Assembly (NCBI RefSeq): GCF_018860245.1
Contig: NZ_JAHKPD010000007.1
Span: forward strand, 203,892 to 267,891
Source: Pseudotamlana agarivorans
GTDB lineage: Bacteria; Bacteroidota; Bacteroidia; Flavobacteriales; Flavobacteriaceae
Reading direction: 5' to 3'
DNA: 64,000 bases
Shown here: piece after piece, positions 23,431 to 49,723 of the stretch
Layout of the letters: every line of letters starts with the position of its first letter
How positions within the stretch are numbered: position 1 is the first letter of the stretch
Translations under genes and position numbers: made by a program
Notes under the pieces: model-generated
The model's input: the letters and a program-made list of their open reading frames with translations, nothing else
The model's database searches: none
Told to the model about the DNA's origin: nothing

Positions 23431-23766
23431 ATGCAAAAAACATATTACGACCCTGCCGACTTAAAGAAGTTTGGAAAAATTACCGAATGGAATCCTGAAT
23501 TAGGCGACAAATTTTTTGATTACTACGGTAAAGTTTTTGAAGAAGGTGCCCTTACAGCGCGTGAAAAAGCACTTATTGCTTTGGCTGTTTCTCACACCGA
23601 ACAATGCCCTTATTGTATTGATGCCTACACAAAAGACAATCTACAACGCGGTGTGACCAAAGAAGAAATGATGGAAGCCATTCATGTTGGCGCAGCCATT
23701 AAAAGTGGTGCTACGTTGGTTCATGGTGTTCAAATGATGAATAAAGTGAACAAACTAGACATGTAA
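23431..23766 (+). CDS. Arsenosugar-associated AhpD/CMD-like protein
   Basis: This 111-residue protein has the carboxymuconolactone decarboxylase/AhpD fold. The redox CxxC is C59-P-Y-C62 within SHTEQCPYCIDAYT. The His of the classic CxxCxxxH motif is replaced by Tyr66. The sequence resembles the family that NCBI names arsenosugar biosynthesis-associated peroxidase-like protein, found next to ArsS. It is 64 bases upstream of arsS on the same strand, which supports that name. The chemical role is not established; a thiol redox or arsenic-reducing role is an inference. Confidence 0.82.
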   Translation: MQKTYYDPADLKKFGKITEWNPELGDKFFDYYGKVFEEGALTAREKALIALAVSHTEQCPYCIDAYTKDNLQRGVTKEEMMEAIHVGAAIKSGATLVHGVQMMNKVNKLDM

Positions 23767-23830
23767 CCTGCTTCCAACAGCAAATTTTCACCCTATTTCA
23801 AATCGAAACCTATAAATTTAAAACTGATTA

Positions 23831-24886
23831 ATGGCTATTAAGTCCTTAAATAAGCGCGAAAGCGCCTTAGCAAACAGCGAAAAGCAACTCAAAATTTTAT
23901 CGAATGGTATTTTCCAAAATGGAGATTTGCCCACTTTTAAAGCTAAAATTTCTGAAACGCATCAATTTCCGCTTAAAGCGAAAAAACTAGAGATTTTACA
24001 AATAAATCTGGGCTACATGTGCAACCAAGTTTGTACGCATTGTCATGTTGATGCTGGCCCAGACCGCAAAGAAATTATGACGCGTAACACCATGCAACAG
24101 TGTTTGGACGTAATAAAAACAACAGGTGCACACACATTAGATTTAACCGGTGGTGCCCCAGAAATGAACCCAGAATTTAGATGGTTTGTTGAAGAAGCAG
24201 CCAAAGCGGGAATTAAAGATTTTATTGTGCGCTCCAATTTAACCATCATTAGAGCGAACAAAAAATACCATGATCTTCCAGAGTTTTTCAAAAAACATAA
24301 GGTTCATGTCGTTAGTTCTATGCCACACTGGTCCCGTGGAAAAACTGACAAACAACGTGGCGATGGTGTTTTTGATAAGTCGATTAAAGCACTGAATGAC
24401 TTAAACGCGATTGGTTACGGCATACCCAATAGCGATTTAAAACTTGATTTAGTTTACAACCCTTCTGGCGCTTTTTTACCTGGTGACCAAGCATCGATGG
24501 AAAAAGAGTTTAAAAAAGCATTGAAAGAAGATTTTAATATTGACTTCCACAACTTATTTGCCATTACAAATTTACCCATTTCACGTTTTTTAGATTATTT
24601 AATTGCTTCTGAAAACTATGAGGATTACATGTATGCTTTGGTGGAAGCCTATAACCCTGAAGCAGTAAAAAATGTGATGTGCACCAATACACTTTCGGTA
24701 AGCTGGGACGGCTATTTATATGATTGTGATTTTAATCAAATGCTCGAACTTCCTGTAAACAGTAAAGTAAAACACATATCTGAATATAATGAAGATTTGT
24801 TAGAAGGGCGAAATATTTCAATTTCACAACATTGCTATGGCTGTACTGCGGGTGCCGGTAGTAGTTGTCAAGGTGTTGTTGCTTAA
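23831..24886 (+). CDS. arsS: Arsenosugar biosynthesis radical SAM protein ArsS
   Basis: This 351-residue radical SAM enzyme has its iron-sulfur ligands at C64, C68 and C71 (GYMCNQVCTHCHVDAGP) and the GGAPEMNPEFRWFV segment of the SAM barrel. A C-terminal cysteine-rich tail has C335-x-x-C338 and C346 (HCYGCTAGAGSSCQG). In some relatives this tail carries selenocysteine; here all are Cys and no in-frame TGA is needed. The family joins a 5'-deoxyadenosyl group to dimethylarsinous acid, giving the nucleoside precursor of arsenosugars. A palindrome directly follows the stop. Confidence 0.92.
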   Translation: MAIKSLNKRESALANSEKQLKILSNGIFQNGDLPTFKAKISETHQFPLKAKKLEILQINLGYMCNQVCTHCHVDAGPDRKEIMTRNTMQQCLDVIKTTGAHTLDLTGGAPEMNPEFRWFVEEAAKAGIKDFIVRSNLTIIRANKKYHDLPEFFKKHKVHVVSSMPHWSRGKTDKQRGDGVFDKSIKALNDLNAIGYGIPNSDLKLDLVYNPSGAFLPGDQASMEKEFKKALKEDFNIDFHNLFAITNLPISRFLDYLIASENYEDYMYALVEAYNPEAVKNVMCTNTLSVSWDGYLYDCDFNQMLELPVNSKVKHISEYNEDLLEGRNISISQHCYGCTAGAGSSCQGVVA

Positions 24887-24905
24887 TTCCTGCGCAGGCA
24901 GGAAT
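24886..24905. repeat. Short REP-like palindrome, copy 1
   Basis: ATTCCTGC, the loop GCAG and GCAGGAAT form an 8-bp hairpin. It touches the arsS stop and ends 9 bases before the rhodanese start. The same family in the opposite orientation lies before arsM and before the hydroxylase gene. Confidence 0.75.
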
Positions 24906-24914
24906 CTCATGACT

Positions 24915-25409
24915 ATGAAAAACATAATCCTATTCATACTACTATCATGTACTACAGTAAGTTTTGCTCAAAAATCATTGGACAAACTGCTCAAAAAATA
25001 TAACAAAGAAAGTATTCCTTATATCAAGGCTTCAGAATTACAAAACACTCCTTCCGAAGTCATCTATTTAGACACCAGAGCACCTAATGAATACGCCGTT
25101 AGCCATCTTAAAGACGCCATTTTAGTAGATTATAACAACTTCAGCATGGATACAATTCAGAAGATAATTCCGAATAAAACTTCAGAAATCATTGTGTATT
25201 GCACCCTAGGCATGCGATCGGAAACTATTGGCGAAAAATTAAAAGAGGCCGGTTATACTCATGTGAAAAATTTATACGGTGGTATCATCACATGGAAAAA
25301 CAGCAATTTCCCTGTTTATAACGAAAATAACAAACCAACCGATAGCGTACACACTTATTCAAAATCGTGGCGCAAATGGTTAAAAAATGGCATTCAAGTT
25401 TATGAATAA
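24915..25409 (+). CDS. Exported rhodanese-like domain protein
   Basis: This protein of about 164 residues has a signal peptide (MKNIILFILLSCTTVSFAQ) and a single rhodanese domain. Its active-site Cys is in the loop CTLGMRS, followed by the family's NLYGGIITWKN. I chose the ATG at 24915, after the palindrome, because an earlier frame start would run back through arsS and spoil the signal peptide; 24909 (two codons earlier) is also possible. Rhodaneses move sulfane sulfur or bind oxyanions; the substrate is unknown. It overlaps the next gene by 8 bases. Confidence 0.84.
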   Translation: MKNIILFILLSCTTVSFAQKSLDKLLKKYNKESIPYIKASELQNTPSEVIYLDTRAPNEYAVSHLKDAILVDYNNFSMDTIQKIIPNKTSEIIVYCTLGMRSETIGEKLKEAGYTHVKNLYGGIITWKNSNFPVYNENNKPTDSVHTYSKSWRKWLKNGIQVYE

Positions 25410-26004
25410 AGAACTCGTTATTGTATTTGTAAAAAACATACAACTCGGCAAAGTAAAAACACGATTGGCTAAAACCGTAGGTGATGATAACGCCGTAAAG
25501 GTTTACAAAGCCCTATTAGAAATCACTGAAAATGTCACGAAAAACATTTCAGCTGATGTGTGTATTCATTTTTCTGAAACCTTAGACGAGACGATTTGGA
25601 AAAACACAAAAAAAACCATACAACACGGAGAAGACCTAGGTGCCCGAATGAAAAACGCCTTTAAAACGAGTTTTGAAAAAGGTTATGAACGCATTGTTCT
25701 AATTGGTTCTGATTTACCAAGTTTGACTACCGCGCACCTCAATACTGCTTTAACCAAACTTAAGTATAACGACATTGTTTTTGGCCCTGCTGAAGACGGT
25801 GGTTACTATCTCGTTGGTCTTTCTAAAATGCATGATTTTATTTTTGAAAACAAACCCTGGAGTGAAACCCACTTACTCGAAACAACCTTAAATGAAATTA
25901 AAACAAAAAAGGCAACTTATGATGTTTTAGAAACCCTAAACGACATAGACACCATTGAAGACCTTAATGCTTTTCCTCAGCTCATGAAACTCATTTCAAA
26001 TTAA
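25402..26004 (+). CDS. TIGR04282-type arsenosugar biosynthesis glycosyltransferase
   Basis: This protein of 200 residues starts MNKELVIVFVKNIQLGKVKT, the typical opening of the rSAM/selenodomain-associated transferase 1 (DUF2064) family. The nucleotide-sugar fold has GEDLGARMKNAF, IGSDLPSLTT and FGPAEDGGYYLVGLSK. I start at the ATG at 25402, which overlaps the rhodanese stop by 8 bases; an earlier in-frame ATG adds only five residues. The family travels with ArsS/ArsM and with the TIGR04283 transferase that lies 12 kb downstream here. The exact donor and acceptor are unknown. Confidence 0.87.
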   Translation: MNKELVIVFVKNIQLGKVKTRLAKTVGDDNAVKVYKALLEITENVTKNISADVCIHFSETLDETIWKNTKKTIQHGEDLGARMKNAFKTSFEKGYERIVLIGSDLPSLTTAHLNTALTKLKYNDIVFGPAEDGGYYLVGLSKMHDFIFENKPWSETHLLETTLNEIKTKKATYDVLETLNDIDTIEDLNAFPQLMKLISN

Positions 26005-26130
26005 CACACACACTAACAACGACATAACTCACTTATTTACATTATATTTTAACAATTTATTAACAAAGACACTTTTTATACAGGCTAAAATTCATATCTT
26101 TATTAGCTTATTAATTAAAACCAATTTGTC

Positions 26131-29079
26131 TTGCAAACTACAATCTCCTTGTGGGGGCTAAAACCTCTATCCCTTAGAAAAACAACCACCAAAATCTTAG
26201 CGCTTGCTTGCCTGATATCGACAAGTGCTGCAACGGCTCAAGAACTACCCGTTGATCAGATAAAATCACAAATCAAAGCTTATAAAAAAGACGTTCGCGG
26301 ACCATATTACAGAATAAAATGGTTTTGTGATGATGGTACCATACGTGAAGCCAAAGACCCTTGTCCGGATGAGATTGGTGGTATCCAACACGCCAGTTTG
26401 AAATCTGATGTTGAAAAACTAGGAAAAAAGCATCATATCTTTTTTGGCAACTTATTAGTTCAAAATGAAAATGAAGACTTTTGGGACCACAAGCATAACC
26501 ATAGCCGATTAAAACAATATCAAATAGTTAAGTATTTACAAAGTGTTGACGAAGGCTGGATTTATAGACGCGGGCAATTTTACCGTGGGGCAATGCAATC
26601 TGAAGATGAACAAGCCTGGGGCCTAGAATTCTACAAATGGCTACTAAAAAACAAGAGTTACACCAAAGGTCAATTCTTTTTACTGAAACAATCATTACAT
26701 GATATCCCGCATTCTGGAGACAGCAATTTAGCTCAAAAAATGCGTAGCGAATCTAAAGTTTTAGGAAATGAAATTAGTTCATTTATGAAACTAAGAATTA
26801 AGATTCATGGTAATCCTGAAAAAAGAGATATCGCTTCGGTAAAAAGCTTTGTTTCAAAACATAACTCAGATCTTAGTGCAGATCAAAAAAAGGAATTCAA
26901 GACCTTATTAGCCACCATGGAGGATTACTACAAACCTCTAAACATAAAAGATATTAAAGGATTAAGCAACCAACTTTCTAATCCGCATAAAACCGAATTA
27001 AATAATTTATTAGCGCCTTATAACGCCGGTTTATCAGCAAAAGACAAGATTGAAACTTTAGGCCCCGTGCTCATGTATATTCGTGAACATTTTGAAGGTT
27101 TAAATTCGGCAAACGATAAATTAGCAGCATTAGATATTTCTAATAAGATTGAAAAAACCGTTTTTCAGAATTCTCAAGAATGGACGCCGAACGACCTAAA
27201 TGGTATCCTGCAAAAAATTGATTACTTAAGCTATGTGGCGGCTTCTACAGGTTTAATTGAACTTTGGGAATACAACAAAATCAAATCGACTTTAGGAAAA
27301 TACAAAAATAAAAAACAATTAACTATTGCCGAATTAAACAAGGTATTAAGCACTTCTAGAAGTGTTGTAGAATGGAGTGCTGGAATGGTAAAGGCAAATT
27401 ATAGTGAAATTGTTGAAACTTACTCACAATTCGAACCTTTATCTTATGGTTTTATTGATGATAAAATTCGTTCATCTATCGCCTTAGACTTAGGAAATAG
27501 TGTTGGGGTTTTAGGAAAATATATTTCTGAAAAATCATCGATTAAAAATGAAGTGATTGGTGTTTCAAAACCAGCAACCATAAGAGGATTAAACCCTGGT
27601 TATGCTTTTGGTGAATTGGTTGTAGTTGAAGGTTCGATTGAAAATATCAATTTTTCAAAAGATAAAATTTACGTATTCAACAGACCACCTTCAGGACTAA
27701 AACCTATAGCTGGAATTATGACCGTTTCCGAGGGAAATTTAGTATCACACGTGCAATTATTAGCTAGAAACCTAGGTGTACCAAATGCGGCACTTTCACA
27801 AGAAAACTTAGACGATTTAGCCAAGTACAATGGTAAAAAGGTATTCTACGCGGTTTCGACAAAGGGTAATGTGATTGTTAAAACTGAAGGCCAAATGTCT
27901 TCCGAAGAAAAAGCTCTTTTTAGTAAAGTAGAGCGCAGCACCAATAAAATCACAGTACCTGTAGATCGCATACAATTGGATCAAACCGATATTTTAAATA
28001 TGCGTGAGGTGGACGCTTCCGATTCAGGAAAACTTTGTGGTCCAAAAGCAGCAAATTTATCACAGTTAAAATCGATGTTCCCCGATCATGTGGTAGAAGG
28101 TTTTGTCATTCCATTTGGTATTTTCAGAAAGCACCTTGATAATCAAATGACAGGTCAAAACATGACCTATTGGGCGTTTTTAACGCAAACCTATGCTGAA
28201 TGTGAAGCCATGAAAAAGGCTAACAAAACAGAAAATGAAGTTGAAGCCTATCAATTTAAACGCTTAAGTACTTTAAGAACTGCGATTATAAACATGGACC
28301 TTAATCCTGATTTTATCGCACAATTACGTAAAAATTTCATAGATGCTTTCAAGAAACCTATTGGTGAAGTTCCTGTTTTCTTAAGAAGTGACACCAATAT
28401 GGAGGATCTCAAAGAATTTACTGGAGCTGGTTTAAACTTAACGTTGTTTAATGTTCTAGCGGAACAAAAAATCATTGAAGGCATCAAAAAAGTTTGGGCG
28501 TCACCTTATATGGAACGTAGTTTAAAATGGCGTCAAAAGTACCTTTTAAACCCTGAATATGTATTCCCTTCAATTTTGGTTATTCCTGGGGTAAACGTAG
28601 ATTATTCTGGCGTTGTAGTAACAACCGGAATTAACGCTGGTGGCGAAGATGATTTAACCATTGCTTTTAGTCGCGGTGTTGGTGGTGCGGTTGATGGTCA
28701 ATCGGCTGAAACACGAATGGTTTCAAAACACAATAACTTATTATTATCACCTTCTAGAGAACCTAGTTTTTTAACCCTTCCAAAAACGGGAGGCACGAAT
28801 CGCGAATACACCACGTTTGAAGATCCTATTTTATCAGAAAAAAACATGCAGTCTATTCGTGAAATGGTAGAACAAGTCCGTAAAAAGATGCCAGAGCAAA
28901 CGGGTTCGGACTACAAAGGCCCTTATGATATGGAAATGGGCTTTCAAAATGATAAACTTTGGTTATTCCAAATACGTCCTTTTGTACAAAACAAAAAAGC
29001 ATCAAGCTCGAAGTATTTAAAATCGATTACTCCAAAAGTAAACTACAATCAAAATATCCCTTTAAACTCAAACTTGTAA
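26131..29079 (+). CDS. Exported PEP/pyruvate-binding (PPDK-like) protein, permuted domain order
   Basis: This 982-residue protein starts at a TTG codon; no ATG gives a full N-terminus. RKTTTKILALACLISTSAATA makes a signal peptide, so it is predicted to be exported. An alpha-helical region of about 450 residues follows. A PEP-utilising mobile domain is next, with a candidate phospho-His in EGNLVSHVQLLARN near 550. An ATP-grasp PPDK N-like domain comes last (GPKAANLSQLKSMF; FLRSDTNMEDLKEFTGAG; SRGVGGAVDGQSAE). Canonical PPDK has the ATP-grasp domain first and a PEP barrel, absent here. Outside the cytoplasm ATP is scarce, so the role is unclear. The next gene starts 4 bases later. Confidence 0.75.
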   Translation: MQTTISLWGLKPLSLRKTTTKILALACLISTSAATAQELPVDQIKSQIKAYKKDVRGPYYRIKWFCDDGTIREAKDPCPDEIGGIQHASLKSDVEKLGKKHHIFFGNLLVQNENEDFWDHKHNHSRLKQYQIVKYLQSVDEGWIYRRGQFYRGAMQSEDEQAWGLEFYKWLLKNKSYTKGQFFLLKQSLHDIPHSGDSNLAQKMRSESKVLGNEISSFMKLRIKIHGNPEKRDIASVKSFVSKHNSDLSADQKKEFKTLLATMEDYYKPLNIKDIKGLSNQLSNPHKTELNNLLAPYNAGLSAKDKIETLGPVLMYIREHFEGLNSANDKLAALDISNKIEKTVFQNSQEWTPNDLNGILQKIDYLSYVAASTGLIELWEYNKIKSTLGKYKNKKQLTIAELNKVLSTSRSVVEWSAGMVKANYSEIVETYSQFEPLSYGFIDDKIRSSIALDLGNSVGVLGKYISEKSSIKNEVIGVSKPATIRGLNPGYAFGELVVVEGSIENINFSKDKIYVFNRPPSGLKPIAGIMTVSEGNLVSHVQLLARNLGVPNAALSQENLDDLAKYNGKKVFYAVSTKGNVIVKTEGQMSSEEKALFSKVERSTNKITVPVDRIQLDQTDILNMREVDASDSGKLCGPKAANLSQLKSMFPDHVVEGFVIPFGIFRKHLDNQMTGQNMTYWAFLTQTYAECEAMKKANKTENEVEAYQFKRLSTLRTAIINMDLNPDFIAQLRKNFIDAFKKPIGEVPVFLRSDTNMEDLKEFTGAGLNLTLFNVLAEQKIIEGIKKVWASPYMERSLKWRQKYLLNPEYVFPSILVIPGVNVDYSGVVVTTGINAGGEDDLTIAFSRGVGGAVDGQSAETRMVSKHNNLLLSPSREPSFLTLPKTGGTNREYTTFEDPILSEKNMQSIREMVEQVRKKMPEQTGSDYKGPYDMEMGFQNDKLWLFQIRPFVQNKKASSSKYLKSITPKVNYNQNIPLNSNL

Positions 29080-29083
29080 CAAT

Positions 29084-30331
29084 ATGCAAAAATTACTTTT
29101 TCTTGGCATAGGAATTCCGCTTATTATTTTAGGCGCACTTTATCCAATAGACGGCTACAAATCAACAAAAATCGCAAGATTACTTTATGTAGAAAAGGCT
29201 GTAAATAGCGAAAAAGGCTATAGACGAATTCCAGAAGGCGCTTTATTAAAACTCGAAGACATTAAACTAAATTTAACTTCATGTAATGGCGAAGTAGTAG
29301 ATAGTCTTTTAAAAGAAGATCCTGAATTTTCAAGGGCCATAAAAAGAGCCATCCCTAGTGGGAATTACTCTTTAACAGCGGTAGATATGTCTGACCCAAG
29401 CGATTTAAAATACGCCGCTTACCGCGAAAACAGAGGTTACCAACCAGGCAGCGTTGGTAAACTTGTTGTATTAAACGCGTTCTTTTCAGAATTAAAAAAA
29501 CTGTATCCTAATTCATGGAACAAAAGAACCGATTTGATGCGCGACAAAAGAGTCGCTTCTGGTATTTTTGGAACTGGAGACCACCACACCATTCCGGTTT
29601 ATAATATTGAAACCGAAAAACAAGTAAAACGTAAAGTTGTTTCTAGCGATGTATTTTCATTATATGAATGGTTAGACCACATGGTATCGGTAAGTAATAA
29701 TGGCGCAGCAACTGTTGTGTTTAGAGAAACCATGCTACTCAATCACTTTGGAGAAAAATACCCAGAATTAACCGATGAGGAGGCCTTAAATTATTTTAAA
29801 GAAACACGTCGTGATACGTTAACTAATCGTGCACATCGCGTAATAAACCAACCATTAAGAGACATAGGTATTACGGAAGACGAATGGAAACTTGGCGGTA
29901 TGTTCACACACGCTTCAGCAAAATATGTTGGTAGAAAAGGTGGAAGTAGTGCCACACCAAAAGGATTAATGAAGTTTCTAGTCCTATTAGAACAAGGAAA
30001 TCTTCATGATAGAAAAACGAGTTTAGAAATGAAACGTCTAATTTATTTAACAGACAGACGTATTCGTTATGCACAGTCACCACGTTTAAAAGAAGCTGCC
30101 GTTTACTTTAAATCGGGTAGTTTCTACAAATGTAACCGCGAAAAAAACCCAAACTGTGGCGATTACCAGGGTAATGTTTTCAATTACATGAATTCCGTAA
30201 TCATCGTAGAACAACCGAATGGCAAAAAATATATGGTTTGTTTAATGACCAATGTTCTGAATAAAAATTCGGCTTGGGCTCACTTAGATTTAGCAAATAA
30301 AATAGACCGAATTATTAATCCGGACGCTTAA
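29084..30331 (+). CDS. Membrane-anchored penicillin-recognising serine hydrolase
   Basis: This 415-residue protein has an N-terminal signal anchor (LLFLGIGIPLIILGALYP). It has the three motifs of class A beta-lactamase/transpeptidase folds: Ser in PGSVGKLVV (SxxK), SNNGAAT (SxN) and KSGSFY (KxG). It could act on D-Ala peptides or beta-lactams, but it is longer than a normal class A enzyme and the inserted regions look non-standard. It follows the PPDK-like gene by 4 bases, so the two are co-expressed, and it is convergent with the membrane-HEAT gene, overlapping its 3' end by 17 bases. Confidence 0.75.
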   Translation: MQKLLFLGIGIPLIILGALYPIDGYKSTKIARLLYVEKAVNSEKGYRRIPEGALLKLEDIKLNLTSCNGEVVDSLLKEDPEFSRAIKRAIPSGNYSLTAVDMSDPSDLKYAAYRENRGYQPGSVGKLVVLNAFFSELKKLYPNSWNKRTDLMRDKRVASGIFGTGDHHTIPVYNIETEKQVKRKVVSSDVFSLYEWLDHMVSVSNNGAATVVFRETMLLNHFGEKYPELTDEEALNYFKETRRDTLTNRAHRVINQPLRDIGITEDEWKLGGMFTHASAKYVGRKGGSSATPKGLMKFLVLLEQGNLHDRKTSLEMKRLIYLTDRRIRYAQSPRLKEAAVYFKSGSFYKCNREKNPNCGDYQGNVFNYMNSVIIVEQPNGKKYMVCLMTNVLNKNSAWAHLDLANKIDRIINPDA

Positions 30332-33134
30332 TAGCATTTAAAATTTGATGCGCCTTATTACTTATTTCCGCTTCTGCATGTCGCGTTAATGGTTTTAAGG
30401 CGTTTTTATACCCACTAGCATCTGGCATGTTTTCTAAGACATGGAGCGCTGCTAATTTCAATGTGACATTCCCGTCTTTAAGTAGTGTGATTAAACAGAT
30501 TTCTACATCACTAAATTTGGCTTGAACTTGGCTTAAATCCTGTATTTCACGCTCTTCAATAAAATGATACTCAACTATAGGAATCAGTTCTGCCTTTAAA
30601 CTTACATGCAGAATATTATCTAGAAACTCTATAGAATTTACCTTAACGGATTCAGCTTCATCTTTTAAACCGAAATATGCAATTTCCATATCATCTTCAT
30701 TAAGTACAAGAGATAAAATTTCAAAAATAACATGCATAGAACAATCTAATTCCTCTTGAATAACATGAACTAATTGTTCCATCGAAATTTGTAACGCTGT
30801 GTTTTCAGTAACTAATTCCTCTTCTTTCTGTATTGTTTTTATTATGGATATGCGTTGTAAATAAAATTCACATTCTTTAAGTACATTTTCAAACACCCTG
30901 TCTTTATCCATTTTCACGCCGATATCCTGAAAATGCAAATCTACCATAACTTTAACCGCTTCAAATCGCATATAAGGATCACTAGAAATACCCAATCGGA
31001 TTAGTAGTTTTAAGGAATCCCTATTTTTTATAGTCGCCAAGACTTTTGGCAAGTGCTTTTTTACTTTTGAATCTAGATTTTCGTAAACACCATATTCAAG
31101 TAAATAATTTGGTACATGGTTCCCGAAACTATGAAGCGCACTTATGGTAACTTCTCTAAGCTCTTCTTGATTTAATCGGGGTAGCAAATCCTTAATAAAT
31201 TCATCATGCCCAGACAACCCAGCAGCTTTAATAGCATGCTTCAAAATATAAGCCGTATCTGATTTTAAATACTTCTTTATAAATTCGAAAAATTCAGAAA
31301 AACGGGCGTAACCTACAGTCACCAGGAATTCTGCAATTTCCTCTTTAGAATGCGACACTGTTTCGTCTTCAATGGCCTTAATACGTTTTCTTAAACGCTC
31401 ATGTAGTCCGTATTTTTTAACTAAATTCTTATTATCTACCGCAAGTTCAGCAAGACAAAGTAGCGCGGCATCGGCAATGTATTTCTTTCGGTGATCTAAA
31501 TATTTTTTAAATACATTGTTTTCACCTATTTTAGTATGCAACAGCATATACTCCATAGCTTCATAAACAACCTCTCTATCGTTGTTTACCTCAATCAACT
31601 TATTAACTTTACTTGCAGCGGCCCCATGCTTAAAATAATAAATCTCCTTAATTGCCGCCGCTTTTACTAAATTAGAAGGGTGGTCTAAGAGTTTTATAAT
31701 ATGAGGCTTATGAACATCGGTAATACTATCACCTAAGCGTTCTAGAAGGTTTATAATCTCCTCTTCTCCTCCAGAGGTTAAAACCTTTATAACCGAAGCA
31801 TGTAATGCTTTTTTTAAAGTCTTAATACCATCTATATCATGATTACCTATAGCGCTTAAAATATTGGTTTTAAAAGTATCAAAATAAGCATTCCGTAACT
31901 GATAGATTAGTATAATCCAAACAAACAGAAAGAACAATATAATGACGGTGATATAATGTTCATGTAAATCTAAACCTCTAACAACAAATATCAATAAAAA
32001 ACCTGCAATACCAGTAGCTATACTATCTACCACCACATCGATAAAAGACTTGGCTTGTTTTTTATCTTCATATGGGATAGGCATAATAGATAATTCTACA
32101 GCTGCTTTATTTATGGATTGCTTAAAACTGCCATCTACACCTTTCAATAAAATTAACACCCATAATTCTGGAAAAACCAAAAACAACAAACAGCCCATTG
32201 CTATCCCTAAAGGTAGCAGTAGTAAATTAGAAGTCACCCCTAACCAAGCCAATAAACGGTTGGTTAAGAACAATTGAATTAAAAGGGACGCGACATTGAA
32301 AGAAGAGAACCAAAAACCAAAAAAGGAAGCCAATTCGTTAGGGTCTTGAATTTTTAAATTTGCAAAATCACTAAATTGATAGTCTACCAATTTCGCCATG
32401 ATCACAGAAACGCCAACAGTTAATGCTAAATACGTTAGGTGTTTCGATTTAAAAATTATTTTAACGGCTATCTGGCTTCTTTTCTTTTTCTGCTTAATTG
32501 ATTTTCCTGTTTGGATATCGGTAGTATTATGTAAACGGTGGTTCCACACCCAAAAAATAATAGGTATACATACCAAAATCAAACCTGAAGCTAAATAAAT
32601 GACATATAAATTCCCAAAAGCCTTTGAGATAATAGTGGTTAAATAACCTCCAAAAATCCCACCTGCAATAGCTCCCGAACCTATAAAACCAAACAAACGT
32701 TTTGCCTCTCTTGCATTGTAAACCATATTGGCTATAATCCAAAACTGAGAAGTCACTAAAACACCAAAAAGCGAGACACTTACATAATAAGCATACAGAA
32801 TAAAATCGCTATTTAACTGATACTGAATTATAAAACCAAGCGCTAAAAAACAAGCACTAAAAAATAAAAGCGTTACAATAGCTATAGATTTAATACTAAA
32901 AAACCGGAGAGATTTATCGTAAAAATAAGAAGAGAGCACGGCTGTAACCGCAACAATCAAATAAGCATTTGGCAGCTCGGAAGCTCCTAAATTTGATAAG
33001 AAAAGGGCACTAATAGTGGGTTTTACCATGAGCAAAACCGAAATAACTATAAAGATATAAAGTTGCATCAAGAAAGAGATTCGAAACTCTCCCTCACGAA
33101 TATTAAAAGTCTTTTTTACAAAGTTTTTTAGCAT
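30315..33134 (-). CDS. ATP/ADP-carrier-like MFS protein with C-terminal HEAT repeats
   Basis: This 939-residue protein has about 12 membrane spans in its first half (residues about 15-430), with segments such as ISALFLSNLGASELPNAYLI, LLKGVDGSFKQSINKAAVEL and YEDKKQAKSFIDVVVDSIA. These look like the nucleotide (ATP/ADP) translocase branch of the major facilitator superfamily. The second half (about 450-939) is alpha-helical with HEAT-like repeats (HPSNLVKAAAIKEIYYFKHG; DGNVTLKLAALHVLENM). Transport of nucleotides is an inference; many HEAT-fused relatives in Bacteroidota have no known substrate. It is 8 bases downstream of the second serine hydrolase gene. Confidence 0.7.
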   Translation of the reverse strand: MLKNFVKKTFNIREGEFRISFLMQLYIFIVISVLLMVKPTISALFLSNLGASELPNAYLIVAVTAVLSSYFYDKSLRFFSIKSIAIVTLLFFSACFLALGFIIQYQLNSDFILYAYYVSVSLFGVLVTSQFWIIANMVYNAREAKRLFGFIGSGAIAGGIFGGYLTTIISKAFGNLYVIYLASGLILVCIPIIFWVWNHRLHNTTDIQTGKSIKQKKKRSQIAVKIIFKSKHLTYLALTVGVSVIMAKLVDYQFSDFANLKIQDPNELASFFGFWFSSFNVASLLIQLFLTNRLLAWLGVTSNLLLLPLGIAMGCLLFLVFPELWVLILLKGVDGSFKQSINKAAVELSIMPIPYEDKKQAKSFIDVVVDSIATGIAGFLLIFVVRGLDLHEHYITVIILFFLFVWIILIYQLRNAYFDTFKTNILSAIGNHDIDGIKTLKKALHASVIKVLTSGGEEEIINLLERLGDSITDVHKPHIIKLLDHPSNLVKAAAIKEIYYFKHGAAASKVNKLIEVNNDREVVYEAMEYMLLHTKIGENNVFKKYLDHRKKYIADAALLCLAELAVDNKNLVKKYGLHERLRKRIKAIEDETVSHSKEEIAEFLVTVGYARFSEFFEFIKKYLKSDTAYILKHAIKAAGLSGHDEFIKDLLPRLNQEELREVTISALHSFGNHVPNYLLEYGVYENLDSKVKKHLPKVLATIKNRDSLKLLIRLGISSDPYMRFEAVKVMVDLHFQDIGVKMDKDRVFENVLKECEFYLQRISIIKTIQKEEELVTENTALQISMEQLVHVIQEELDCSMHVIFEILSLVLNEDDMEIAYFGLKDEAESVKVNSIEFLDNILHVSLKAELIPIVEYHFIEEREIQDLSQVQAKFSDVEICLITLLKDGNVTLKLAALHVLENMPDASGYKNALKPLTRHAEAEISNKAHQILNAIKRPD

Positions 33135-33142
33135 GCACTAAT

Positions 33143-34060
33143 TTACTCAGAACAATTTAACATCCTAGATTTTTTTAGCACTTTTTCAACTGGAGTAATT
33201 AGATTTCTAATTATTTGTTCGCCATGAGAACTCTCTATTAAAGCGACCAAAATATACCGTCTATCCTTTCCCCAAACTAATACTGAATCGGAATGATAAT
33301 TTTTCCATGAGCCCGATTTTCTAAATAATTTGGCATTGGGAGCGACCTTATTTAAAGTATATACAAACTTATGCCCCAATTGTGGGTTTTTTAAAATTTC
33401 TAACATTTCAGCTGAACGCTGGTTATTAATTAGTTTTCCAAAAACCAAATGGTAATATAAATTTGCTGCTTGGTAAGATGTTGCCGCATGACTTAAGCCT
33501 TTTAAGGGATCTGGATACCTTGCTCCCGCCGCTGCATAGCGTTTACCAACCCATAAACCGCCACCTTGTTCAGCATCATATAAAGTTGTTTTTGTACTAC
33601 GTAAAACCTTTTCAATACGCTTGTATCCAACCAAATCAATCATTCTTGTAGAAGCCGCATTATTCGATTTACTAATCATAAGACTCAAATCTTTCCGAAC
33701 AGCAGGAGTGTCTTTAACTATACCCTTATCAATGGCATCCATAACCGTATAAAGCACAGCGATTTTAGGTAAACTCGCCGCATACATCATATTATTTTCG
33801 TTCACACCTGCAAACCCAATATGATTGATATCATGTAAATCTACCAATGAAATAGACATTTTCTTTGACTGAATTAGAGCCTTCCAACTTTTATTCTTGT
33901 TAAGTTCTGCCTTTAAATTTTTTTCCAGAGCTTCACACTTATTGGATTTTAATTCTTTAAATTCGGTCGTGCGAATAGGCAATGGCTTTTGGGCCGCTAC
34001 AGTAAGCACTAGCAAACAAAAAAGAAACGACAATTTACTTTTAACCTCAGAATAATTCAA
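33143..34060 (-). CDS. Exported serine hydrolase, beta-lactamase-like
   Basis: This 305-residue protein has a signal peptide (KLSFLFCLLVLTVAAQ) and class A beta-lactamase-like motifs: ASLPKIAVLY (SxxK), ISKSNNAAS (SxN) and RKSGSWKNY (KxG). Catalytic residues are therefore in place, but a general peptidoglycan or D,D-peptidase-like role is as likely as beta-lactam hydrolysis. The Omega-loop Glu of true class A enzymes could not be identified with certainty. It is first in a two-gene unit with the membrane-HEAT protein. Confidence 0.78.
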   Translation of the reverse strand: MNYSEVKSKLSFLFCLLVLTVAAQKPLPIRTTEFKELKSNKCEALEKNLKAELNKNKSWKALIQSKKMSISLVDLHDINHIGFAGVNENNMMYAASLPKIAVLYTVMDAIDKGIVKDTPAVRKDLSLMISKSNNAASTRMIDLVGYKRIEKVLRSTKTTLYDAEQGGGLWVGKRYAAAGARYPDPLKGLSHAATSYQAANLYYHLVFGKLINNQRSAEMLEILKNPQLGHKFVYTLNKVAPNAKLFRKSGSWKNYHSDSVLVWGKDRRYILVALIESSHGEQIIRNLITPVEKVLKKSRMLNCSE

Positions 34061-34116
34061 ACTTAAAATATTTACTTAAACAATAGATTTTATGAAACTT
34101 ACATCCTTTCAAGCTG

Positions 34117-34124
34117 CAAAGATA
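34117..34124 (-). promoter_or_regulatory. Putative -7 box for the serine hydrolase unit
   Basis: The minus strand reads TATCTTTG, matching TAnnTTTG, 56 bases before the start of the serine hydrolase gene. No clear -33 element is present at the expected distance. Confidence 0.35.
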
Positions 34125-34169
34125 TAACAAAATGCATGCTATTGTTTAAACGAAATCTTAAAATACATC

Positions 34170-34982
34170 ATGGTAAATCAAATAGAAAAAACAACGGCAT
34201 ACTTAATAGAGAAGGGTTTTGACAAACCTGAAATCGGCATTATTTTAGGCACAGGACTAGGTCAACTCATTGATGAAATAGAGATCATTAAAGAAATAAG
34301 CTATAACCACATTCCGTATTTCCCTACAGCCACAGTAGAGTTTCATAAAGGTAAATTGATTTTTGGTTTACTAGAAGGTAAAAAAGTTGTAGTCATGCAA
34401 GGTCGTTTTCATTTATATGAAGGCTATACATTACAAGATGTGACCTACCCGGTACGAATCATGGAAAAATTAGGCATTCACACTTTATTAGTTTCCAATG
34501 CTGCAGGTGCGATTAATTTAGATTTCAAAAAAGGCGAACTTATGCTTATTGAAGATCACATTAATTTACAATGCAGCTCTCCCCTAGCCTTCAATGGTGT
34601 TGAAAAAATGGGCGAGCGTTTTGTTGATATGAGTGCGCCTTATGACGCCGAAATCAATGCGAAATTTAAAAGTATCGCCAAAGCCAACAACATCAATTTA
34701 CATGAGGGCGTTTACGCCAGTGTTGTAGGTCCGCAATTAGAAACCCGCGCCGAATACCGCATGCTGAAAATCATAGGTGCCGATGCCGTAGGGATGAGTA
34801 CTGTTCCAGAGATTATCGTAGCCAATCATTTAAAATTAAAAGTGGCTGCTGTGTCAGTTTTAACAGATGAATGCGACCCAGACCACTTAGAACCTGTAAA
34901 CATAGAAGAAATTATTGCCATGGCTCACAAAGCTGAACCGGTGATGATTACTTTGTTTAAGGAACTTATAAAAAGTTTATAG
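34170..34982 (+). CDS. punA: Purine nucleoside phosphorylase, PunA/PNP-I type
   Basis: This 270-residue enzyme splits purine nucleosides with phosphate into base and pentose 1-phosphate. The trimeric PNP signatures are visible: ILGTGLGQL (phosphate loop), MQGRFHLYEGY, LLVSNAAGAIN, VGPQLETRAEYR and VGMSTVPEIIVANH. The last is the region that sets purine specificity, with Asp instead of Asn in VLTDEC. It lies between the two halves of the arsenosugar genes, about 220 bases upstream of arsM and on the same strand. Besides general salvage it could remove adenine from the dimethylarsinoyl-adenosine made by ArsS; that is inference. Confidence 0.9.
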   Translation: MVNQIEKTTAYLIEKGFDKPEIGIILGTGLGQLIDEIEIIKEISYNHIPYFPTATVEFHKGKLIFGLLEGKKVVVMQGRFHLYEGYTLQDVTYPVRIMEKLGIHTLLVSNAAGAINLDFKKGELMLIEDHINLQCSSPLAFNGVEKMGERFVDMSAPYDAEINAKFKSIAKANNINLHEGVYASVVGPQLETRAEYRMLKIIGADAVGMSTVPEIIVANHLKLKVAAVSVLTDECDPDHLEPVNIEEIIAMAHKAEPVMITLFKELIKSL

Positions 34983-35012
34983 AATACGATGTAATAAAAC
35001 TTTCATAACGTC

Positions 35013-35033
35013 ATGCCGAACTTGATTCGGCAT
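35013..35033. repeat. REP-like palindrome, CATGCCGAA type
   Basis: ATGCCGAA, loop CTTGA and TTCGGCAT form an 8-bp hairpin in the gap between punA and arsM. It belongs to the same general class as the TGCTGAAACAATTTC elements at 54.4 and 55.2 kb. Confidence 0.65.
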
Positions 35034-35171
35034 CTCATTAATTTTGAAAGCAAAAAACTTATGATTAAGCCTCTGAAATCTAAGATTCAACACAACTCTC
35101 TAGATTTGAGGTGAACATATTCTATTATGTTTTTTTACAGAAATTCGAAATAATCAACTTAAAATCAAGAG

Positions 35172-35191
35172 ATTCCCACTTTCGTGGGAAT
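35172..35191. repeat. Short REP-like palindrome, copy 2, before arsM
   Basis: ATTCCCAC, loop TTTC and GTGGGAAT form an 8-bp hairpin, preceded by AGAG. It ends 7 bases before the arsM start codon, so it should form in the leader and could affect translation. Confidence 0.72.
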
Positions 35192-35198
35192 AAAAACT

Positions 35199-36167
35199 AT
35201 GAGTTACTTAGAAACCACACACGACGTATACAAAGAAGCCGCATTAACGCCAGATGTTGGTTTATGCTGCACTACCAATCCGATTTGGGAATTACCAGGA
35301 TTAAAGATCCCGAAAATCATGCAAGAGATGAATTACGGTTGTGGAACGACAGTTCATGCACGCGATTTAGCAAACAACCCCAAAATGCTTTATGTTGGTG
35401 TTGGTGGCGGCATGGAACTACTACAATTCGCCTATTTTAATCGTCAAAAACATGGGGTTATTGGAATTGATGTCGTTGATGAAATGCTTGAAGCTTCAAG
35501 AAAAAACTTTATTGAAGCTGAAGCGCAAAACCCATGGTTTAAAAGTGAATTCGTAGATCTTAAAAAAGGCGATGCGATGCACCTTCCGGTTGAAGATAAC
35601 AGCATTGATGTGGCCGCACAAAACTGTCTGTTTAACATTTTTAAGGCTGAAGATTTAAAGAAAGCTATTGCTGAAATGTACCGCGTTTTAAAACCTCATG
35701 GGAAATTGGTGATGAGCGACCCAACCTGCGAACAACCAATGAATGACACTTTACGTAACGACGAACGCCTACGTGCTTTATGTCTTAGCGGAAGTTTACC
35801 TATAGCCGATTACGTTAAAGCACTGACCGATGCTGGTTTTGGAACCATTGAAATTCGTGCTAGAAAGCCCTACAGAATTTTAGACCCTAAAAACTACCCT
35901 ACCAAGGAGTTAATCTACATCGAATCCATTGAAGTGGCTGCCATTAAAGACCCCATGCCAGAAGATGGTCCATGTATCTTTACTGGAAAAGCAGCCATTT
36001 ATTATGGTGAAGACGATTATTTTGACGATAAAAAAGGTCATGTTTTATTGAAAAATCAGCCCTTAGCCATTTGTGATAAAACCGCTGGTGCTTTAGCCGA
36101 TTTAGGTCGTGATGATATTTATATTAGTCAATCAACTTACCATTATGATGGTGGCGGGTGTTGCTAG
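35199..36167 (+). CDS. arsM: Arsenite S-adenosylmethionine methyltransferase ArsM (arsenosugar type)
   Basis: This 322-residue enzyme methylates trivalent arsenic stepwise to dimethyl products using SAM. The start at 35199 (MSYLETTHDVYKEAALTP) is preferred over an ATG five codons earlier that lies in the repeat. The SAM-binding loop YVGVGGGMELLQ lies near residue 65, with the adenosine-binding Asp in VIGIDVVDEM. Candidate arsenic-binding cysteines are C23/C24 (GLCCTTNP), C48, C143 (AQNCLFN) and the terminal GGGCC. The order of Cys residues differs from the classic three-Cys ArsM, as in the arsenosugar-associated subfamily. It pairs with the arsS gene 10 kb upstream. Confidence 0.9.
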   Translation: MSYLETTHDVYKEAALTPDVGLCCTTNPIWELPGLKIPKIMQEMNYGCGTTVHARDLANNPKMLYVGVGGGMELLQFAYFNRQKHGVIGIDVVDEMLEASRKNFIEAEAQNPWFKSEFVDLKKGDAMHLPVEDNSIDVAAQNCLFNIFKAEDLKKAIAEMYRVLKPHGKLVMSDPTCEQPMNDTLRNDERLRALCLSGSLPIADYVKALTDAGFGTIEIRARKPYRILDPKNYPTKELIYIESIEVAAIKDPMPEDGPCIFTGKAAIYYGEDDYFDDKKGHVLLKNQPLAICDKTAGALADLGRDDIYISQSTYHYDGGGCC

Positions 36168-36419
36168 GCGATAATCGCCATTTGATTATTAATTAAACGT
36201 CAGACCTGCCTTTCTGCAGAATGACTCAGTCGAAGTTGAATCTTATGAAGAGAAATTAAAAACTAGGTTTTAATAATGTTGTTCAGAAAGAGGTACGACT
36301 GAAGAATCTTTACATGATTCGTGAGATTCCTCGGAATTATAAAGGTTAAGTCACTAGAGGACAAAACAGATGATTATGAATTTATCTTTACTTTGGGATT
36401 CTGAACTTTAAAACATGAG

Positions 36420-36439
36420 ATTCCTGCCTTCGCAGGAAT
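36420..36439. repeat. Short REP-like palindrome, copy 3, before the hydroxylase gene
   Basis: ATTCCTGC, loop CTTC and GCAGGAAT form an 8-bp hairpin that ends 5 bases before the next start codon. The 277-base gap before it (36168-36444) holds degenerate repeat relics such as CTGCAGAATGACTCAGTCGA and no gene. Confidence 0.75.
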
Positions 36440-36444
36440 AAGAG

Positions 36445-37341
36445 ATGGAAAAATATTTAAACCTCATAAAAAAAGCCTATTCGGGTTACTGGAATTACCT
36501 CAAACACGAGGTACAACTCCCTAGTGACTGGGACAACTATTTCTATGGTTTAATCATTATTTCTCTGGTAGTTTGGGGCCTAGAAATTATATGCCCTTGG
36601 CGGAAAAACCAATCGATATTCAGGAAAGATTTTTGGCTGGATACCTTTTATATGTTCTTCAATTTTTTTCTACTGAATCTCATCATATTAATAGCACTTT
36701 CAAACACCGCTGCCGAAGTTTTTAACGATCTCTTAAACATTTTAGGATTATCGCTTTCAAATTTCCAGCTCTTTGACGTGAATCAATTACCGGCTTGGTT
36801 GGGCTTATTAGTATTTTTCTTGGTTTCAGATTTTGTGCAATGGAACACCCACCGTCTTTTGCACCGCCTGCCTTGGCTGTGGAATTTTCATAAAGTGCAC
36901 CATTCGGTTAAAGAAATGGGCTTTGCCGCACATTTACGTTACCATTGGATGGAACCCATAGTTTATAAATCATTGCTTTATATTCCGCTGGCGATCATTG
37001 GGAATTACAGCTCCAAAGATGTGGCCATTGTTTACTTTTTCAGTATTGTTATTGGGCATCTAAACCATGCGAATTTAGGTTGGGATTACGGCATTTTAAA
37101 ATACATTTTAAACAACCCCAAAATGCACATCTGGCATCACGCTAAAGCCTTACCCAATCAACTAAAATATGGTATGAACTATGGAATCACGTTCAGCTTT
37201 TGGGATTATATTTTTAAAACAGATTACATCCCGCATAGCGGAAAAGACATCGAATTGGGTTTTGAAGGCGACGAAAATTTTCCAGAAGATTTTTTTAAAC
37301 AGGAAATGTATCCTGCAAGCACTAAACCTTCTGAAAACTAA
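36445..37341 (+). CDS. Fatty acid hydroxylase / sterol desaturase family protein
   Basis: This 298-residue integral membrane protein has about four spans and the diiron histidine clusters of the family: THRLLHRLP, FHKVHHSVKEM, GHLNHAN and HIWHHAKALP. The family hydroxylates or desaturates lipids or sterols using molecular oxygen. It starts 5 bases after a palindrome and 278 bases after arsM. Its repeated placement in arsenosugar clusters suggests a role on an arsenolipid or a lipid partner, but its substrate is unknown. It is followed 5 bases later by the DUF547 gene, so they are co-expressed. Confidence 0.84.
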   Translation: MEKYLNLIKKAYSGYWNYLKHEVQLPSDWDNYFYGLIIISLVVWGLEIICPWRKNQSIFRKDFWLDTFYMFFNFFLLNLIILIALSNTAAEVFNDLLNILGLSLSNFQLFDVNQLPAWLGLLVFFLVSDFVQWNTHRLLHRLPWLWNFHKVHHSVKEMGFAAHLRYHWMEPIVYKSLLYIPLAIIGNYSSKDVAIVYFFSIVIGHLNHANLGWDYGILKYILNNPKMHIWHHAKALPNQLKYGMNYGITFSFWDYIFKTDYIPHSGKDIELGFEGDENFPEDFFKQEMYPASTKPSEN

Positions 37342-37346
37342 GTCTT

Positions 37347-38120
37347 ATGAAAAGCGTTTCATTTTTAATTATTAATTTTTTACTACTTGGAAACTTTCAG
37401 GTTCACGCTTATAATATCATAATAGAGCCTTTCACAATCGTTACGGCTGAAGATTCTATTTCAACAGAACCACAAGAAGCTTTTAACCATCAATTATGGG
37501 ATGATCTACTTCAAAAACACGTTTCTGAAGACGGAAAAGTAAATTACAAAGGCTTTTTATCAGATAAAAACCGTCTCGACCAATACATTTCAAGTTTAGC
37601 TAAAAGCACACCAAAAACTTCTTGGAATAACGCTGAAAAACTCGCTTACTGGATTAACGCTTACAACGCTTTAACGGTCGATTTAATCCTGAGAAACTAC
37701 CCCATAAAAAGTATTAAAGACATCAGAAACCCATGGAAACAAAAACTTTGGAAGCTAGGAGACACCGCATACAACCTTCATGAAATTGAGCATAAAATCT
37801 TGAGAGACATGCATGAGCCGCGTATACATTTCGCAATAGTTTGCGCCGCAGTTTCTTGTCCGAAATTACTAAATAAAGCATACACCGCTTCAAAATTGGA
37901 GTATCAGTTAGACCAAGCGACTACCGCTTTCATACGCGACGATTCTAAAAATAGCATCTCCAAGGAACACCTGGAATTATCAAAGATTTTTCAGTGGTTT
38001 ACCAAAGACTTTAAGCAAAATGGTTCTTTAATAGATTTTCTAAACCAGTTTTCAAGCGTTAACATTTCCGCGAAAGCGAAAACACATTATAAAGAGTATC
38101 TTTGGGAGCTCAATGAGTAG
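37347..38120 (+). CDS. Exported DUF547 domain protein
   Basis: This 257-residue protein has a signal peptide (FLIINFLLLGNFQVHA) and a DUF547 domain (about 50-250; WINAYNALTVDLILRNYP, GDTAYNLHEIEHKILRD, HFAIVCAAVSCPKL). The conserved Cys-His-Asp arrangement suggests a papain-like fold, but activity is not shown. It lies 5 bases after the hydroxylase gene and overlaps the next glycosyltransferase by 8 bases, so all three form one unit of the arsenosugar locus. Its function is not known. Confidence 0.85.
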   Translation: MKSVSFLIINFLLLGNFQVHAYNIIIEPFTIVTAEDSISTEPQEAFNHQLWDDLLQKHVSEDGKVNYKGFLSDKNRLDQYISSLAKSTPKTSWNNAEKLAYWINAYNALTVDLILRNYPIKSIKDIRNPWKQKLWKLGDTAYNLHEIEHKILRDMHEPRIHFAIVCAAVSCPKLLNKAYTASKLEYQLDQATTAFIRDDSKNSISKEHLELSKIFQWFTKDFKQNGSLIDFLNQFSSVNISAKAKTHYKEYLWELNE

Positions 38121-38817
38121 CCAAATCTCCATAATCATCCCTGTTTTAAACGAAGCGCCTTTTATTAGAAAGCTTTTAGAGCATCTTTTTGAAAACGCTT
38201 CCGCGGAAAATATTGCTGAAATTATTGTTGTTGATGGTGGTAGTATTGATAACACGAGAGAAATCGTTGAATCCTTTTCGGCTCAAAACATCATGTCTTT
38301 AGAATCTGAAAAAGGTCGTGCCAAGCAGATGAATTTTGGCGCAAAACATGCCAAAGGCAACATTTTATATTTTCTTCACGCCGATTCTTTTCCGCCTAAA
38401 CATTTCGATACTTTTATTATTGAAGAATTTAATAAAGGGCATGAAGCGGGTTGTTTTAGGATGCAGTTTGATAATAACCATTGGTGGTTAAAACTAGCCA
38501 GTTGGTTAACAAAATTTAGCTGGAGAGCTTGCAGAGGTGGCGACCAAAGTCAGTTTATCACCAAATCCTTATTTCGCGACATTGGTGGTTATAATGAAAA
38601 TTTCATCATTTACGAAGACAATATTTTGATTAACGCACTCTACGCTCGAAAGCAATTTGTGGTGATTAATAAAAAATTACAAACATCGGCACGTTGCTAT
38701 GAAAAACACGGCGTTTGGAAATTGCAGTATTTATATTGGAGCATTTATGTAAAAAAATGGTTTGGCGCTTCCGCGGAAGAACTTTACCAATTTTATTTAA
38801 ATCGCGTGGCAAAGTAA
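38113..38817 (+). CDS. TIGR04283-type arsenosugar biosynthesis glycosyltransferase
   Basis: This 234-residue family 2 glycosyltransferase starts SSQISIIIPVLNEAPFI. It has the nucleotide-binding VVDGGSIDNT and ESEKGRAKQMNFGAKHAKG, then ILYFLHADSFPP with the HAD in the DxD place. GGDQSQFITKSLFRDIGGYNE follows. This is the rSAM/selenodomain-associated transferase 2 family, the usual partner of TIGR04282. It overlaps DUF547 by 8 bases. Acceptor and donor are not known; addition of a glycerol or sugar unit to the arsenic nucleoside is an inference. Confidence 0.88.
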   Translation: MSSQISIIIPVLNEAPFIRKLLEHLFENASAENIAEIIVVDGGSIDNTREIVESFSAQNIMSLESEKGRAKQMNFGAKHAKGNILYFLHADSFPPKHFDTFIIEEFNKGHEAGCFRMQFDNNHWWLKLASWLTKFSWRACRGGDQSQFITKSLFRDIGGYNENFIIYEDNILINALYARKQFVVINKKLQTSARCYEKHGVWKLQYLYWSIYVKKWFGASAEELYQFYLNRVAK

Positions 38818-39564: not shown

Positions 39565-39585
39565 CATAAAATCTGTTTTCAGCAA

Positions 39586-41253: not shown

Positions 41254-41304
41254 CACAAACTTCTTATTGTTTTGAAAACAAAAAAAAAGCAAATCATATA
41301 TTCT

Positions 41305-41375
41305 TGTCAGTTCGAACGCAGTCGAGAACCCTCTGATGAGAAAGAAACTCAATCTCGACTGCGCTCGATTTGACA
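41305..41375. repeat. Long imperfect inverted repeat
   Basis: The arms at 41305-41327 and 41353-41375 are nearly complementary over 23 bases (core TCGAACGCAGTCGAGA against TCTCGACTGCGCTCGA), with a 25-base loop. This is a typical Flavobacteriaceae dispersed repeat; it lies between two same-strand genes. Confidence 0.75.
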
Positions 41376-41407
41376 TTCAATTCCAAACTGCATAATTAAA
41401 ACCACAC

Positions 41408-49720: not shown

Positions 49721-49723
49721 TTT

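Follow-up and report, generated by a model that had tools for sequence, protein, structure and literature searches.

A conserved four-gene module lying inside the arsenosugar-type gene locus of Pseudotamlana agarivorans

Gene content of the split locus

The stretch of DNA analysed here (the window) covers 64,000 nucleotides of the flavobacterium Pseudotamlana agarivorans (assembly GCF_018860245.1, contig NZ_JAHKPD010000007.1, positions 203,892 to 267,891). It contains nine genes of an arsenosugar-type locus, all on the plus strand, which are divided by a 7.9-kb block of four other genes (26131-34060) located between the TIGR04282 transferase and purine nucleoside phosphorylase (PNP) genes (Table 1). 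The sequence-only reading of this DNA had described such a locus, split by a PPDK-like protein, two serine hydrolases and a membrane-HEAT protein, and both halves of that description were borne out. That is, every arsenosugar gene named is complete at the position and on the strand given, scores above a curated cut-off or is matched by Pfam, and covers its model over nearly the full length (open reading frame (ORF) calls combined with curated profile models), and the block has the claimed contents. The description needs one refinement, in that the block consists of two convergent gene pairs and half of it, the minus-strand pair, opposes the direction of the arsenic genes. The two middle genes of the block (hydrolase 1 and transporter) are arranged tail to tail with a 17-base overlap.

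The ArsS protein carries the radical SAM CX3CX2C motif (CNQVCTHC, residue 64), and the PNP also exceeds the cut-off of TIGR01700 (300.1 bits, cut-off 293.35). The true start of the rhodanese gene probably lies downstream of the ORF start, because the NF045521 match begins at residue 45. An artefact or chance annotation was rejected, since curated cut-offs were passed; chance is moreover ruled out because a block-free version of the same gene order recurs across the family.

Table 1. Features of the split locus and its downstream neighbours in the window
Feature	Position	Strand	Remarks
AhpD-like arsenosugar-associated protein	23431..23766	+	TIGR04169, 195.9 bits, cut-off 120
ArsS radical SAM enzyme	23831..24886	+	TIGR04167, 443 bits, cut-off 300
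Rhodanese-domain protein	24837..25409	+	NF045521, 200.2 bits, cut-off 145
TIGR04282 CofC-like transferase	25387..26004	+	201.3 bits, cut-off 134; last gene left of the block
Module gene 1, dikinase-like protein (PPDK_N), predicted exported, 982 aa	26131..29079	+	Signal-type N terminus, PPDK_N at 635-962
Module gene 2, serine hydrolase 1 (Beta-lactamase2), predicted exported or anchored, 415 aa	29084..30331	+	SxxK, SxN, KSG
Module gene 3, NTT-type nucleotide-transporter domain (TLC/MFS) fused to HEAT repeats, 939 aa	30315..33134	-	
Module gene 4, serine hydrolase 2 (Beta-lactamase2), predicted exported, 305 aa	33143..34060	-	SLPK, SxN, KSG
Purine nucleoside phosphorylase (PNP)	34170..34982	+	NF006054, 346.7 bits, cut-off 218; first gene right of the block
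ArsM arsenite methyltransferase, arsenosugar type	35184..36167	+	NF038099, 576.2 bits, cut-off 400
Fatty-acid-hydroxylase-family protein (FA_hydroxylase)	36445..37341	+	PF04116, 97.2 bits
DUF547 protein	37347..38120	+	PF04784, 99.5 bits
TIGR04283 glycosyltransferase	38113..38817	+	235.8 bits, cut-off 182
Metallophosphoesterase	38836..39585	-	Also comes after the TIGR04283 gene in several relatives
FAD/NAD oxidoreductase, NapH-like ferredoxin membrane protein, GT2	39934..44036	+	Recurrent downstream neighbours

Gene order in relatives and an empty site within the genus

Gene order was compared among 80 ArsS loci of named genomes, each taken with at most 10 kb of flanking sequence per side (the best 80 among the matches listed). 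The usual order is AhpD-ArsS-rhodanese-TIGR04282-PNP-ArsM-(hydroxylase)-DUF547-TIGR04283, from which individual loci depart by gaps and losses. The gap before PNP was counted in the 61 loci showing this gene; the 19 loci without PNP in the stretch were excluded, some of them being cut short and the Maribacter- and Muricauda-like ones seeming to keep ArsS away from PNP. In 60 of the 61 loci the nearest marker gene ahead of PNP was TIGR04282, at a distance of at most 250 bp in 49 and of 250-1000 bp in 11. The sole exception (L033) was Tamlana agarivorans, a member of the same genus as the window, with the same block. In L034, one of the 11 loci with the longer distance, the gap before PNP (12116 to 13061) holds a gene for a small secreted protein that has, by eye, a DM13-type look with sorting by the type IX secretion system.

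Among the six genomes available for the window's genus, the dikinase gene of the block is found at the same place in five, including the window's own. The remaining genome, G084, is the closest by ArsS (95% identical) and has a gap of 73 bp between TIGR04282 and PNP, located mid-contig; it gave no dikinase or transporter match genome-wide (the hydrolases were not sought genome-wide). Some 55 bp ahead of the G084 PNP are alignable to the sequence just right of the block in G201, the last 20 or so being nearly identical, although this alignment loses weight in that it spans AT-rich bases and was judged by eye. In a tree of AhpD, ArsS, PNP and ArsM, G084 joins the window and G201 (support 97). 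Because G084 is thus nested among block carriers, a gain in the genus ancestor followed by a loss in G084 is the shortest history.

We consider it likely that the arsenosugar-type locus was ancestrally contiguous, that a self-contained four-gene module, putatively of the envelope and probably acquired horizontally, entered it between TIGR04282 and PNP in the ancestor of the genus, and that the module was later removed in G084. A single locus broken by insertion was one of two histories that the sequence-only reading had proposed, together with a synteny comparison. The comparison favours insertion, in that relatives are contiguous without the block and not all of them share it at the same place. 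The contiguous order in nearly all loci, the empty site of G084 and the presence of the module at other sites elsewhere (see below) all support this history. Both halves of the arsenosugar locus have remained intact despite the block. The empty site found in a congener shows an operon-like locus for arsenic chemistry to have been split by cargo with no gene lost.

The right half of the module is encoded on the minus strand, so that transcription starting at ArsS would hardly extend to PNP and ArsM, and these genes would be expected to have their own promoter. TAnnTTTG boxes, which we take to be promoter motifs, occur once before hydrolase 2 (minus strand) and twice before ArsM (plus strand), and none was found ahead of PNP on the plus strand; these boxes are not decisive.

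Distribution and history of the module

The dikinase and the transporter were each found in 39 of 199 Flavobacteriaceae genomes, and the two sets of 39 are identical. Apart from the window's genome there are 38 carriers; 35 loci (L118-L152) from 34 of these were viewed, and 31 of the 34 have the four module genes in convergent order. Of the remaining three, G143 showed no hydrolase 2, and the transporter lies elsewhere in G108 and on a separate contig in G144. Spacing varies among the 31, the two gene pairs being 7 kb apart in G075 and some further loci having about 1 kb of additional DNA. An internal stop is present in the transporter of L140 and in hydrolase 2 of L133. The flanks of the module vary, eight carriers sharing one neighbour set (carboxylase-like by eye) and four another, with diverse neighbours in the others. 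A class-wide sample of 385 genomes yielded 10 with the dikinase, including four Flavobacteriaceae. Five loci from outside the family were viewed: the full convergent module is present in L182 and L183, the transporter is inverted in L184, and in L185 and L186, the latter a short stretch, the dikinase alone was seen. These findings show the block to be a conserved, portable module rather than debris.

The dikinase tree was compared with that of ArsS, used as a stand-in for the species tree, in 37 genomes having both genes. The dikinases of the genus group into a single, long-branched clade, and the ArsS neighbours of the genus (G049, G070, G163 and G175) fall into a separate, tight dikinase clade. 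Judging from these sequence trees, the disagreement would fit best with a transfer of the module into the genus. Within the genus, the window pairs with G201 in the trees of the two plus-strand genes (0.97 for the dikinase, 0.63 for the hydrolase), and identity between these two genomes is 91% for the dikinase and 69% for the transporter (minus half, 30315-34060, compared with L114-L117). The module halves seem to have recombined inside the genus.

A number of observations weigh against the history preferred here, of gain in the genus ancestor and loss in G084. In the trees of the minus-strand pair, G201 instead joins G199 and G200 (1.00 for the transporter, 0.96 for the hydrolase). There is a weak correlation between dikinase and ArsS distances (r 0.28, a value reached in 0 of 2000 permutations; when the genus is left out, r 0.22, reached in 57 of 2000), so that the module shares part of its history with its hosts, whose tree is represented here only by ArsS. 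G084 could also represent the original state, with two gains elsewhere. As to the mode of entry, there is no integrase or transposase among the block ORFs, and no end repeats of the block and no G+C step were found, for which a mobile element with ends, or foreign G+C, was rejected. Furthermore, a tRNA site was not found at the block, the sole tRNA of the window being located at 15640-15715.

The nucleoside phosphorylase and the arsenosugar pathway

An arsenosugar pathway of ArsM and ArsS is known from Synechocystis (Xue et al. 2019, as cited in PMC8552651). The window resembles it in having both enzymes above NCBI curated cut-offs, along with the TIGR04169, TIGR04282 and TIGR04283 partners. 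The flavobacterial locus differs in its additional rhodanese, PNP, hydroxylase and DUF547 genes and, in this genus, in being split by the module. ArsM would methylate As(III) and ArsS would then add a 5'-deoxyadenosyl group; next, adenine would be lost and a glyceryl-type group added with the help of TIGR04282 and TIGR04283, the PNP being one candidate for the adenine step. At the level of titles and abstract openings, no arsenosugar-PNP operon is named in the literature listings covered, titles on arsenosugars and nucleoside phosphorylase point to human exposure, and a search for a Flavobacter arsenosugar gene cluster gave one match, a review on algae as food.

Removal of adenine from the ArsS product by the PNP had been suggested in the sequence-only reading. 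ArsS exceeds its cut-off in 148 of the 199 family genomes and ArsM in 117, all of which also have ArsS. A PNP match (E up to 1e-40) was obtained for 175 genomes, i.e. all 148 with ArsS but also 27 of the 51 without ArsS over cut-off. PNP and ArsM are at most 500 bp apart in 102 of 106 genomes with both positions listed. On this genomic context a part for the PNP in arsenosugar formation is plausible, and adenine removal by it is possible. The occurrence of PNP in genomes without ArsS, its staying with ArsM where ArsS lies apart, and the specificity-site residue described below, which is the same throughout the family, speak against the suggestion.

There is close to an even chance, though somewhat less, that the PNP is instead an ordinary purine salvage enzyme merely sharing the operon, or has another arsenic role (arsenolysis with arsenate reduction, or recycling of 5'-deoxyadenosine). 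The match is single in 173 of the 175 genomes with PNP, as would suit salvage, and G155 (L153) keeps PNP alone of the gene set, between the usual AnmK and acyl-CoA-dehydrogenase neighbours and a phosphoesterase. The specificity-site Asp, at the position of human Asn243, is found in 89 of 89 rows, namely in 58 of 58 ArsS-linked named loci with the column covered, 5 of 5 from the genus (one being T. agarivorans again) and 26 of 26 ArsS-negative ones; as a mark of a locus-specific, adenine-type PNP it was therefore rejected, being the same with or without ArsS. The tight pairing of the PNP is, moreover, with ArsM. For the human enzyme, reduction of arsenate in vitro is mentioned in PMC12608789. 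Against these alternatives stand the presence of PNP in every ArsS-positive genome and an adjacency to ArsM that is tighter than housekeeping alone needs.

Sixteen contexts without ArsS over cut-off were viewed (L147 and L153-L167, several of them short). Six of these (L147, L159, L161, L164, L165 and L166), from genomes with neither ArsS nor ArsM over cut-offs, contain rhodanese-TIGR04282-PNP together with TIGR04283, and DUF547 is present in four. The PNP thus also belongs to a unit that occurs in the absence of ArsS, and the families of this unit, taken here as 'arsenosugar' families, may have an earlier function that does not involve arsenic.

Downstream of the locus, the genes for the FAD/NAD oxidoreductase, NapH-like protein and GT2 trail in several genera (the oxidoreductase in 16 of the 80 named loci, many of which end earlier), and they may be candidate members of the arsenosugar pathway. 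Further downstream in the window (48185-53013) lies a polyamine-like set, with a deoxyhypusine-synthase-family protein (49724-50698), a carbon-nitrogen hydrolase and an Orn/Arg-type decarboxylase.

Relation of the module to arsenic and other cargo at the same interval

The split is probably unconnected to arsenic chemistry. The block had been called unrelated in the sequence-only reading, and this is likely, with some reservation. In 33 of the 34 other carriers viewed, no arsenosugar marker gene was present in the stretch, ArsS over cut-off is missing in 4 of the 39 carriers, G084 has the arsenic genes without the module, and half of the module opposes the arsenic genes. It is improbable that, in this genus, the module contributes to the working of the arsenosugar locus, e.g. 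through an envelope step that phosphorylates or processes an exported arsenosugar glycan or lipid. Its retention at the site in five of the six genus genomes would agree with such a part, and what speaks against an unrelated block is that the module co-occurs with ArsS somewhat above expectation (35 of 39 versus 148 of 199, p 0.014, uncorrected for kinship) and mildly with ArsM (30 of 39, p 0.011), and that in G129 it lies near rhodanese-TIGR04282-PNP-TIGR04283, with a gene that is GH32-like by eye between them. The G129 neighbourhood was rejected as proof of linkage, being the only such case among the 34 and having this intervening gene.

Of 135 ArsS-positive genomes with both positions listed, 109 have ArsS and PNP no more than 20 kb apart; the distance is below 3 kb in 87 and between 5 and 20 kb in 20. 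Seventeen of these 20 have a sodium:solute-symporter-type gene near ArsS (the only gene of its unit scanned for), and the other three are the window, G063 (L178) and G142 (L179). By eye, the interval of G063 contains a TonB-receptor-like and ABC-transporter-like set and a second radical-SAM-like gene (no ArsM was found in G063); that of G142 contains a cytochrome-c/nitrite-reductase-like set. The interval between ArsS and PNP thus carries different cargo in different lineages.

The symporter gene is present in 14 of the 80 named loci, in 13 of them within a unit that also encodes a TIGR04282-like protein, SusC, SusD and a phosphoesterase (e.g. L038:11056-18626). This unit, which belongs to genera other than that of the window, is located between ArsS and the PNP side in nine of the 13 loci and upstream of AhpD in four. 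Family-wide, the symporter was found in 29 of 199 genomes, all with ArsS and 28 with at most 10 kb between the two genes; no match was found in the window's genome. ArsM is missing in 14 of the 29, compared with 17 of the 119 other ArsS-positive genomes (Fisher p 0.0002, uncorrected for kinship). This suggests, as a lead only, that the symporter unit imports already methylated arsenicals (or arsenosugars) where ArsM is absent.

The second history in the sequence-only reading, that ArsS and PNP-ArsM formed separate modules which later came together and flank the block by chance, is the weaker one for the window and more improbable still, for although ArsS and PNP are over 20 kb apart or on different contigs in 26 of the 135 genomes (another contig possibly reflecting assembly), PNP was out of view in the 19 named loci mentioned above and 6 of 16 contexts have the rhodanese-to-TIGR04283 set without ArsS and ArsM, the genes are contiguous in the closest relatives, G084 included, and the rhodanese and TIGR04282 genes, left of the block, accompany PNP in ArsS-less operons, so that the block cuts inside a tight unit.

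Predicted activities of the module proteins

As judged by a simple rule on hydropathy, the N terminus contains a hydrophobic stretch in 37 of 40 dikinase sequences, in 40 of 40 of the first hydrolase and in 35 of 37 of the second; T. agarivorans is included twice in these numbers. The dikinase consists of an uncharacterized N part of about 440 aa, a phosphohistidine-like region at about 486-585 that includes His540, and PPDK_N (635-962). PPDK_N was matched in all 38 members scanned (94.1 bits in the window, cut-off 27). Matches to the phosphohistidine region were all weak: PEP-utilizers in 35 of the 38 at E up to 1 (best 0.0065) and GWD1_pHisD in 19, the latter being the window's only one (E 0.037, 14.1 bits versus a cut-off of 27). 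His540, an 'RSDTNMED' stretch, Q947, R949 and P950 are invariant in the 38 dikinases. Eight solved relatives were found by profile at E up to 0.01, all named phosphoenolpyruvate (PEP) synthase. The curated cut-offs for PEP synthase (PpsA) were not reached (71.9-83.8 bits versus 598-883), and no PEP/pyruvate barrel appeared among the 25 of 31 Pfam families listed. The protein resembles PEP synthase and alpha-glucan water dikinase in its ATP-binding PPDK_N domain and in a putative phosphohistidine-type region, and differs from both in its signal-type N terminus and 440-aa N part. In glucan water dikinase, too, the His region precedes the ATP domain.

Both hydrolases keep SxxK, SxN and KSG, motifs of class A beta-lactamases and penicillin-binding-protein-like serine hydrolases; these are invariant in the aligned members (22 of the first, 20 of the second). 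Unlike a class A beta-lactamase, hydrolase 2 scores far under the curated cut-off (16.1 versus 200 bits) and hydrolase 1 has no NCBIfam match; no solved relative of hydrolase 2 was found by profile at E 0.001.

The transporter of the window matches TLC (40.4 bits, cut-off 21) and HEAT_2 (53.7 bits, cut-off 27.7), TLC being found in 34 of 36 members, and profiles of its membrane part match solved ADP,ATP carriers (E 1.2e-14 for a chloroplast one and 5.2e-12). Fusions of NTT and HEAT domains are widespread in bacteria and of unknown function according to the passages available of Major et al. 2017 (PMC5381601). The module transporter shares with them a TLC/NTT domain followed by C-terminal HEAT repeats, and is unlike them in that no cyclic-nucleotide-binding domain occurs among the Pfam matches of the 36 members. 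Moreover, its gene faces that of a putatively exported dikinase, together with two putatively exported serine hydrolases, a setting that those passages do not mention.

From its domains the module looks like an energy-using cell-envelope system. The NTT-HEAT protein would carry nucleotides across the inner membrane, the exported dikinase would charge its histidine from ATP and then phosphorylate some substrate, and the two exported serine hydrolases would act on this substrate or a linked one. A more specific version, a periplasmic ATP-driven system in which the NTT-HEAT protein exports ATP (in exchange for AMP or ADP), the dikinase phosphorylates a wall or surface glycan and the hydrolases process it, is a tentative proposal and rather unlikely to be right in full. 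We infer export, ATP movement, phosphorylation and the substrate from the composition and order of the module, the N termini of its proteins and their conserved residues, and it counts against the envelope reading as a whole that substrate and activity are deduced in this way for every module protein. A structure model of the dikinase from two sequences (mean predicted local distance difference test score 34.9) was of too low quality to help.

The families of the module are known ones, and their combination was not met in the literature listings and passages covered, mostly titles and abstract openings; at that level, no dikinase is named together with an NTT-HEAT protein. The module is a more unusual finding than the split of the arsenosugar locus. 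It pairs an enzyme with an ATP domain, predicted to be exported, with a homologue of nucleotide carriers, and this context makes the function of NTT fusions directly testable. If the proposed periplasmic system were true, it would provide a powered enzyme outside the cytoplasm in free-living bacteria and a function for NTT-HEAT fusions.

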